Below are positions 395 through 56,384 of a stretch of DNA of 64,000 nucleotides, piece by piece. This stretch comes from a bacterium (GTDB taxonomy: Bacteria > Hinthialibacterota > Hinthialibacteria > Hinthialibacterales > Hinthialibacteraceae). The DNA lies in contig WGLV01000043.1 in NCBI GenBank assembly GCA_016125385.1, forward strand, positions 1-64,000. Direction: 5' to 3'. Made by a program: the position numbers and the translations under genes. Below the pieces are notes generated by a model. The model worked only from the letters and a program-made list of their open reading frames with translations, was not told where the DNA came from and searched no databases. Numbering within the stretch: position 1 is the stretch's first letter; every line of letters begins with the position of its first letter.

Positions 395-1117
395 CTATTT
401 GACCGACATCAGCAACATATGTCCGGCCATGCCCAGCAAAAAGCCGCACACCGCGCCAAACGGCGGCGCCCAGCGCCGCTCAAGTTTTGCCTGGGGAGCA
501 ATATCTTCGAAGACAAGGTACAGAATTCCGCCGGAAGAAAACACCATGATGACGCCCAGCGCGGCGCTCCAGCCGGCCAGCACGCTCCAGCCGATCCACG
601 CCGCCAGCGGTCCAAGGCCCACCAGCAGACAGAACGCGATCAAAATGGTTCGGGAGCGGAGACCGCCCGACGCGCGCATCTCACGATAGGCGTTAAAGGC
701 TTCAGGGACGTTCTGAATCGCGATCAGAAACGCCAACAGGCGCCCCGCGCCGCCGCCCTCGGCCATCGCCGCGCCCAACGCCATCGCCTCGGGGACGTAA
801 TCAAGCAGCATGGCGCACAACTGCGACGCGGCGCCGCCGGTTTTTGACAGCAGCATGTCGATCGCCATAAAGACGGCCCCGCCCGCCAGAAACGACGCGC
901 ACACGGCGGGTATCGACAGGCGTTCGATCCCTTCCGGAACCAGCACCAGCGCCACCGCCGCCATCAACGCCCCGCCGCCGAATGCGATCACGCCATGACG
1001 GAACTCGGTTTCAAGCCAGCGCGGCTGGATGCTTTCAAACCGCGCCAACACCCCGCCGACCGGAATCGAAACGCCGGCCAGCGCCGCATAAATCAACGCT
1101 TCAACAAAATCATTCAT
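395..1117 (-). CDS. ZIP-family-like metal transporter, divergent metal-binding motifs
   Basis: A 240-residue integral membrane protein with about eight hydrophobic helices, the usual size and topology of bacterial ZIP (ZupT-type) divalent-metal importers in the inner membrane. Helix 4 carries DYVPEAMALG and helix 5 carries QNVPEAFNA. These align with the ZIP metal-site motifs HxxPEGxA and HNxPEG, but the first residue is Asp or Gln instead of His and PEG has become PEA. Transport of another cation, or altered selectivity, is therefore possible. The start ATG at 1117 has GGGAGG six bases upstream. That SD is the 3' arm of a perfect 12-bp hairpin, suggesting translational control. The gene is divergent from the pseudopilin at 1286. 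The fold call is fairly secure, the substrate unknown. Confidence 0.7.
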   Translation of the reverse strand: MNDFVEALIYAALAGVSIPVGGVLARFESIQPRWLETEFRHGVIAFGGGALMAAVALVLVPEGIERLSIPAVCASFLAGGAVFMAIDMLLSKTGGAASQLCAMLLDYVPEAMALGAAMAEGGGAGRLLAFLIAIQNVPEAFNAYREMRASGGLRSRTILIAFCLLVGLGPLAAWIGWSVLAGWSAALGVIMVFSSGGILYLVFEDIAPQAKLERRWAPPFGAVCGFLLGMAGHMLLMSVK

Positions 1118-1123
1118 TCAACA

Positions 1124-1171
1124 CCTCCCGTTCAGTATACACGGTTTAGATATCGACTTCTGAACGGGAGG
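1124..1171 (-). promoter_or_regulatory. SD-sequestering inverted repeat upstream of the ZIP-like gene
   Basis: CCTCCCGTTCAG (1124-1135) and CTGAACGGGAGG (1160-1171) form a perfect 12-bp inverted repeat separated by 24 bases. On the minus strand, the arm nearer the gene contains GGGAGG, the ribosome-binding site six bases before the ATG at 1117. If transcription starts upstream of 1171, the mRNA would hide its SD in a 12-bp stem, as in an RNA thermometer or ligand-controlled leader. Alternatively the repeat is a DNA operator; a possible -35 (TTGACC) lies just upstream on the minus strand, which would put the transcript start inside the loop. Confidence 0.5.
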
Positions 1172-1285
1172 CGGTCAAACCAAAATTTAATTAGCGCCAG
1201 CAATCAAATCATTGTATGATACTGTTCCATCCTTTGTGGTCTGACACCCTTGTCTTCATATCATGGTATAAACGGGAGAGCCGGT

Positions 1286-1852
1286 ATGATCGTTTTACCG
1301 GGCAAAAAAGGGTTCACCCTGATCGAATTGCTGATCGTGGTGGCAATTATCGGAATTCTGGCCGCCATCGCCGTACCCAACTTTCTTAACGCTCAGATGA
1401 AAGCCAAAATCAGCCGCGTCTACTCAGACCAGCGCTCCATCGGCATGGCTTGCGAGATGTACAATCTCGACCGGAACTCGTATCCGGGCGGCGCCTGGTG
1501 GAATTCGACGGAATGGTGGGAGAAACATTCATACCGATTTCACGTGTTGACCACGCCCATCGCGTATCTGAGTTCGATCCCCATCGATCCGCTTCAGACA
1601 TCCGACCCGCATAAAATCGAACCGAATCTCGCTCCAATCTGGGACGGCGGCTACGTCTATGACGACGCCAGCCGCAGCGGCAACACCCTGAGCGTGTACG
1701 GCAAAAATTATAAATACACCATCCGCAGCCCCGGCCCCGCGCTCGACTGGAGCCAGGCGCACGCCACCTACGTGAATTACTACGCCGCGACCAACGGGCT
1801 GCGCAGCCGTGGAATCATCGCCTGGCTCGGCCCGGGCGGAACCATCTTCTAG
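1286..1852 (+). CDS. Type II secretion/type IV pseudopilin (GspG-like)
   Basis: 188 residues. A very short leader ending in KKG precedes FTLIELLIVVAI, the class III prepilin cleavage and methylation site: cleavage after Gly, N-methylation of Phe, and Glu at +5. The N-terminal helix continues to PNFLNAQ. The globular part contains LTTPIAYLSSIPIDPL and near the C-terminus NGLRSRGII, two signatures shared with the other two pilins in this window. I start at 1286 because GGGAGAG lies five bases upstream; an in-frame ATG 36 bases earlier has no SD and would lengthen the leader unusually. Prepilin peptidase and assembly ATPase are not in the window. A strong terminator follows. Confidence 0.85.
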   Translation: MIVLPGKKGFTLIELLIVVAIIGILAAIAVPNFLNAQMKAKISRVYSDQRSIGMACEMYNLDRNSYPGGAWWNSTEWWEKHSYRFHVLTTPIAYLSSIPIDPLQTSDPHKIEPNLAPIWDGGYVYDDASRSGNTLSVYGKNYKYTIRSPGPALDWSQAHATYVNYYAATNGLRSRGIIAWLGPGGTIF

Positions 1853-56338: not shown

Positions 56339-56384
56339 CGCCGCAAGACGCCGAGGCGAACGAGCGCCCCGGCGTCTTGCGGCG
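56339..56384. terminator. Long perfect hairpin after the FGE-like gene
   Basis: CGCCGCAAGACGCCG (56339-56353) and CGGCGTCTTGCGGCG (56370-56384) form a perfect 15-bp stem, extended inside by GGCG/CGCC. It lies four bases after the stop codon of the minus-strand gene, so it probably ends that transcript or protects its 3' end. No U-run follows on the minus strand. Confidence 0.6.

Follow-up and report, generated by a model that had tools for sequence, protein, structure and literature searches.

A perfect inverted repeat that covers the Shine-Dalgarno (SD) sequence of a ZIP-like metal transporter gene may act in RNA as a translational off-switch, or insulator, in which the SD is hidden and the choice of transcription start site serves as the switch. 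This reading, which depends on modelled folds, is put forward tentatively, at somewhat short of even chances. The window, that is, the whole stretch of 64,000 nucleotides that was analysed, starts at the first base of contig C18, and the ZIP-like gene lies near the start of this contig. The features concerned are the following.

395 to 1117, minus strand: ZIP-like metal transporter gene, 240 amino acids, ATG at 1117 (weak Pfam Zip match and orthologs)
1129 to 1124, minus strand: SD sequence GGGAGG of the ZIP-like gene, six bases 5' of the ATG (sequence)
1124 to 1135, minus strand: 3' arm of the hairpin (CUGAACGGGAGG), which includes the SD (sequence, repeat search, RNA fold)
1136 to 1159, minus strand: hairpin loop of 24 bases, with part of a TATACT -10-like hexamer (1139-1134) that continues into the 3' arm (sequence)
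1160 to 1171, minus strand: 5' arm of the hairpin (CCUCCCGUUCAG), with an outer imperfect extension to 1178 (sequence, repeat search, RNA fold)
1184 to 1212, minus strand: best weak sigma-70-like site, ATGATT-N17-TAAATT, with a predicted start at about 1177, just before the 5' arm (promoter model)
1215 to 1221, no strand assigned: TATGATA, probable -10 of the pilin gene, of the symmetric TATNATA form, with a candidate minus-strand start at about 1209 (sequence)
1286 to 1852, plus strand: divergent type IV pilin or pseudopilin-like gene, with the SD AACGGGAG at 1271-1278 (sequence, profile matches)

A sequence-only reading of this DNA had described a perfect 12-bp inverted repeat with a 24-base loop, and direct reading places it exactly there: CCTCCCGTTCAG at 1124-1135 is the exact reverse complement of CTGAACGGGAGG at 1160-1171, with 24 bases between them. 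The repeat search extends the pairing imperfectly to 1117-1135/1160-1178, where 16 of the 19 positions match (84% complementary). The position of the SD of the gene starting at 1117 within the 3' arm, also claimed by that reading, is confirmed by the sequence. RNA from 1185 to 1105 folds at -29.6 kcal/mol, while 200 shuffled sequences gave -15.1 ± 2.8 kcal/mol (z = -5.2), and no shuffle was as good. On the predicted mRNA, the SD thus lies within a stable stem, as in a generic SD-occluding leader hairpin. An intrinsic terminator was considered for the hairpin and rejected, the T-run being absent on both sides.

The start codon is credible, since the ZIP-like frame offers no start earlier than the ATG at 1117, and the alignments with many orthologs begin at residue 1, where the ortholog has an ATG as well. 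Among the SD hexamers of the host genome, GGGAGG and CGGGAG are frequent. Pfam Zip matches the C-terminal half of the product with 27 bits, under the cut-off of 35.1, the NCBI ZupT model matches it far under its own cut-off, and no solved structure matches the product by sequence. Orthologs with 43-60% identity are found in several phyla, among them proteobacteria, Verrucomicrobia and one Pirellulaceae genome. The label "ZIP-like" is fair despite the weak Pfam match, and the product of 395-1117 is likely a metal transporter. This gene is the sole Zip match in the host genome, and it was not found in 13 genomes of the same class. Its absence from these genomes, together with best relatives in other phyla, suggests that the gene was gained by transfer. 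Downstream of it, toward the contig start, no gene was identified.

How strongly the SD is hidden depends on where the transcript begins. The modelled cost of opening the SD is 15.1 kcal/mol for a start at 1256, 20.7 for a start at 1209, and 16.7 for a start at 1177 or 1172. It falls to about 10 kcal/mol for starts at 1155-1168, and to 3-4 kcal/mol for starts at 1148 or later, where the 5' arm is missing. The hiding of the SD by the hairpin, as had been proposed from the letters of the sequence, is thus supported by the folds, with a modelled 15-21 kcal/mol for starts at 1172 or above. By these start-dependent energies, the start site would decide whether the ZIP-like gene is translatable.

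Candidate start sites were ranked with a sigma-70-like promoter model trained on 331 leaders of the host genome, which recovers TTGAC-N17-TATAAT-like promoters. Weak minus-strand sites with starts at about 1172-1178 rank first, and no start in the loop scores well. The site ATGATT-N17-TAAATT has a score of 4.66 and is tied with TTGATT-N17-TTTGGT; this score is at the 68th percentile of leaders and the 84th of reverse-strand controls, and is not significant. The TATACT hexamer has a poor -35, its RNA would start at about 1127, within the SD, and the model does not rank it with its best sites. With a start at about 1172-1178, the ZIP-like gene would always be off unless the stem is opened.

The promoter of the divergent gene offers another possible origin of minus-strand RNA. 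The sequence TCATTGTATGAT (window 1209-1220) is identical before the pilin ortholog of another genus of the family (L149, 1420-1500), and it is probably the pilin promoter, conserved between two genera, with no good -35. It contains TATGAT at 1215-1220; the next base completes TATGATA, and this final base is not conserved in L149. The symmetric TATNATA form lets one -10 serve both strands. In bidirectional promoters, the divergent starts are mostly 18 bp apart (PMC10268837), and the predicted starts at 1227 and 1209 fit this spacing. In the window, the TATNATA form is found as often as expected (three against 3.0). Two pilin-like genes stand in tandem at 1286-2701 of the window. The first of them has 61 matches in the host genome at E ≤ 1e-20, and sister genomes have up to 92; prepilin-type proteins are strongly expanded in the host and sister genomes.

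The repeat could be a coincidence or a mutational by-product: the two arms may match by chance, or template switching may have left one as an inverted copy of the other, and any regulatory role would be small or absent. Its chance frequency was surveyed in 857 kb of the host genome, mostly as stretches, with 372 SD-bearing genes. Perfect repeats of at least 12 bp with a 12-40-base loop number just four in these 857 kb, and most perfect repeats of at least 12 bp there are terminator-like, short-looped and situated at gene ends. A further long perfect repeat of the window, 15 bp with a 16-base loop at 56339-56384, lies in or near an open frame. Among the 372 genes, the ZIP-like leader hairpin is the sole perfect stem of at least 12 bp over an SD. 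When leaders were swapped between these genes, six matches over all cross pairs corresponded to 0.016 expected own cases, and the true expectation is somewhat below this value, at least one of the six being divergent neighbours with the same DNA. With a looser count of k-mer offsets the chance value came out higher, because offsets and shared DNA are counted repeatedly.

A chance origin of the SD-covering stem is unlikely on these counts: the stem is perfect over 12 bp and is placed exactly on the SD, and a cost of at least 17 kcal/mol would normally be disfavoured by selection unless it is tolerated or bypassed. On the other side, scaling 0.016 in 372 genes to a genome with a few thousand genes in all gives about 0.15 cases expected by chance, and the folding energy by itself is not extreme, since 21 of the 372 leaders fold as well. 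Among 12,000 chimeric leaders, 77 reach the energy of the hairpin with at least 10 bases of the SD zone paired upstream. The absence of conservation, in 13 class genomes without the gene and 44 distant leaders without the stem, also favours coincidence. Because many windows are being read, coincidence is kept as an unlikely reading that still carries substantial weight.

The comparison of leaders covered 44 of the 46 distant ortholog loci that were collected. The longest stem over an SD in them is 8 bp, and nothing is shared with the ZIP-like leader hairpin, so the hairpin is no general feature of the transporter family; among the leaders compared, it is seen in this one genome only. The regions upstream of pilin orthologs in relatives are not alignable and contain no such repeat, the -10 region alone being common to one of them, and thus nothing links the hairpin to the pilin gene by descent.

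The same repeat could also work as DNA. As an operator, its two inverted 12-bp half-sites, 36 bp apart, would bind a transcriptional regulator of one or both flanking genes (ZIP-like and pilin). In favour are the position of the repeat, with the divergent genes on either side and the conserved -10 of the pilin gene a short way downstream, and the TATACT hexamer between and across the arms, but no other intact arm was found in the 5.5 Mb genome. Copies of an arm with one mismatch occur at 44 sites, and nearly all of the 28 that were examined are inside open frames. Outside the ZIP-like leader the arms are found paired once, in a terminator-like repeat that follows a gene on contig C37, and a looser paired-arm pattern in the class genomes was not above the reversed control. 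A regulon is therefore not supported. In addition, a gap of 24 bp is long for one dimer, and the overlap with the SD would be left without explanation; an operator, perhaps one with a single target, is considered unlikely, yet a serious rival. The repeat on C37 (L130; G000:C37:40874-40907) is a 13-bp repeat, CCTTCTCCCGTTT/AAACGGGAGAAGG, about 15 bases past a 382-codon frame, and is terminator-like with no T-run.

Leaders of metal transport genes are the site of the metal-sensing riboswitches yybP-ykoY, NiCo and M-box, and the present gene is likely a metal transporter. The hairpin could be the off state of a switch that is metal-responsive or controlled by a trans-acting RNA and is released by a ligand or small RNA. 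RNA from the weak promoter with the highest score would begin immediately 5' of the 5' arm, and its leader would then consist of the hairpin alone. The metal-sensing leader suggested in the sequence-only reading gained no positive support: the curated covariance models of Rfam gave no match to the leader at E values up to 1, nothing similar is present in the 44 ortholog leaders, and little room is left for a second domain if the start is near 1172-1178. The folded leader is without a strong alternative pairing partner, its 24-base loop has no recognisable receptor, and a literature search for a zinc or ZIP leader found nothing. Unlike yybP-ykoY, NiCo and M-box, the leader has no aptamer architecture. 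A ligand- or RNA-released leader is judged quite improbable.

An RNA thermometer, in which warming melts the stem and frees the SD, had been suggested as well. As in ROSE-like and fourU thermometers, a hairpin just 5' of the start codon contains the SD in paired form, but here the SD stem is perfect, with no bulges, mismatches, weak pairs or four-U run, and is predicted to be closed in the physiological range. In the model, the fully paired 12-bp stem stays closed to 95 °C, where the unpaired probability of the SD is still 0.02, which contradicts that suggestion. The known thermometer ROSE-G loses its thermoregulation through a single stabilising change, a C-G pair in place of one bulge (PMC12857270). 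A thermometer here is very improbable indeed.

The translational off-switch has closer parallels. In phage T4, I-TevI is not translated from early and middle transcripts but from those of a late promoter, in which part of the hairpin is missing; a similar arrangement is known for segB, and sequestration of the ribosome-binding site (RBS) for soc and e (PMC2988022). The T4 hairpins resemble the present one in that a very stable hairpin sequesters the SD, and transcripts with a start inside it would escape it (PMC2988022). The case here differs in that the gene is a chromosomal one of a bacterium and has a divergent neighbour, a long early transcript is not known, and the internal promoter is a candidate, the TATACT hexamer. 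The transposase RBS of IS200 is likewise covered by a stem-loop (PMC3196728); the ZIP-like leader hairpin also lies over an RBS, but it is not a mobile element and has a single copy in the genome.

As an off-switch, the hairpin would act as follows. In a minus-strand transcript from 1172 or above, the SD would be folded into the stem at the 15-21 kcal/mol given above, and a start in the loop from about 1148 would give a transcript lacking the 5' arm, with the SD opened at 3-4 kcal/mol. Long transcripts, whether produced by read-through or divergently at the pilin -10 with its symmetric sequence (1215-1221), would leave the ZIP-like gene silent; one of the divergent kind, started at 1209, would include both arms and the loop. 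Translation would require a start within the hairpin, or else a 5' arm that has been cleaved or invaded. The switch would then lie in the choice of start site, comparable to I-TevI, soc and e of phage T4. The energies are thermodynamic models, silent on use in the cell, and we infer all the steps past them.

Support for the off-switch comes from the geometry, the fold at z = -5.2, one case in 372 genes against 0.016 expected, the start-dependent energies and the missing T-run, and further from the unique arms without an operator family, the TATACT hexamer, the symmetric TATGATA and the T4 precedent. Against it stand the promoter model, which prefers starts at about 1172-1178 and finds no good start in the loop, and the 44 distant leaders without the stem. 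A more specific proposal, that of a phage-T4-like chromosomal insulator that silences transcripts of the bidirectional (pilin) promoter while its own in-hairpin promoter gives translatable mRNA, is regarded as distinctly unlikely.

At present, this is a single well-formed hairpin in one genome, without supporting conservation. If the off-switch holds up, translation in a bacterium would here depend on the start site, and transcripts directed into divergent genes by bidirectional promoters could be neutralised in this way.
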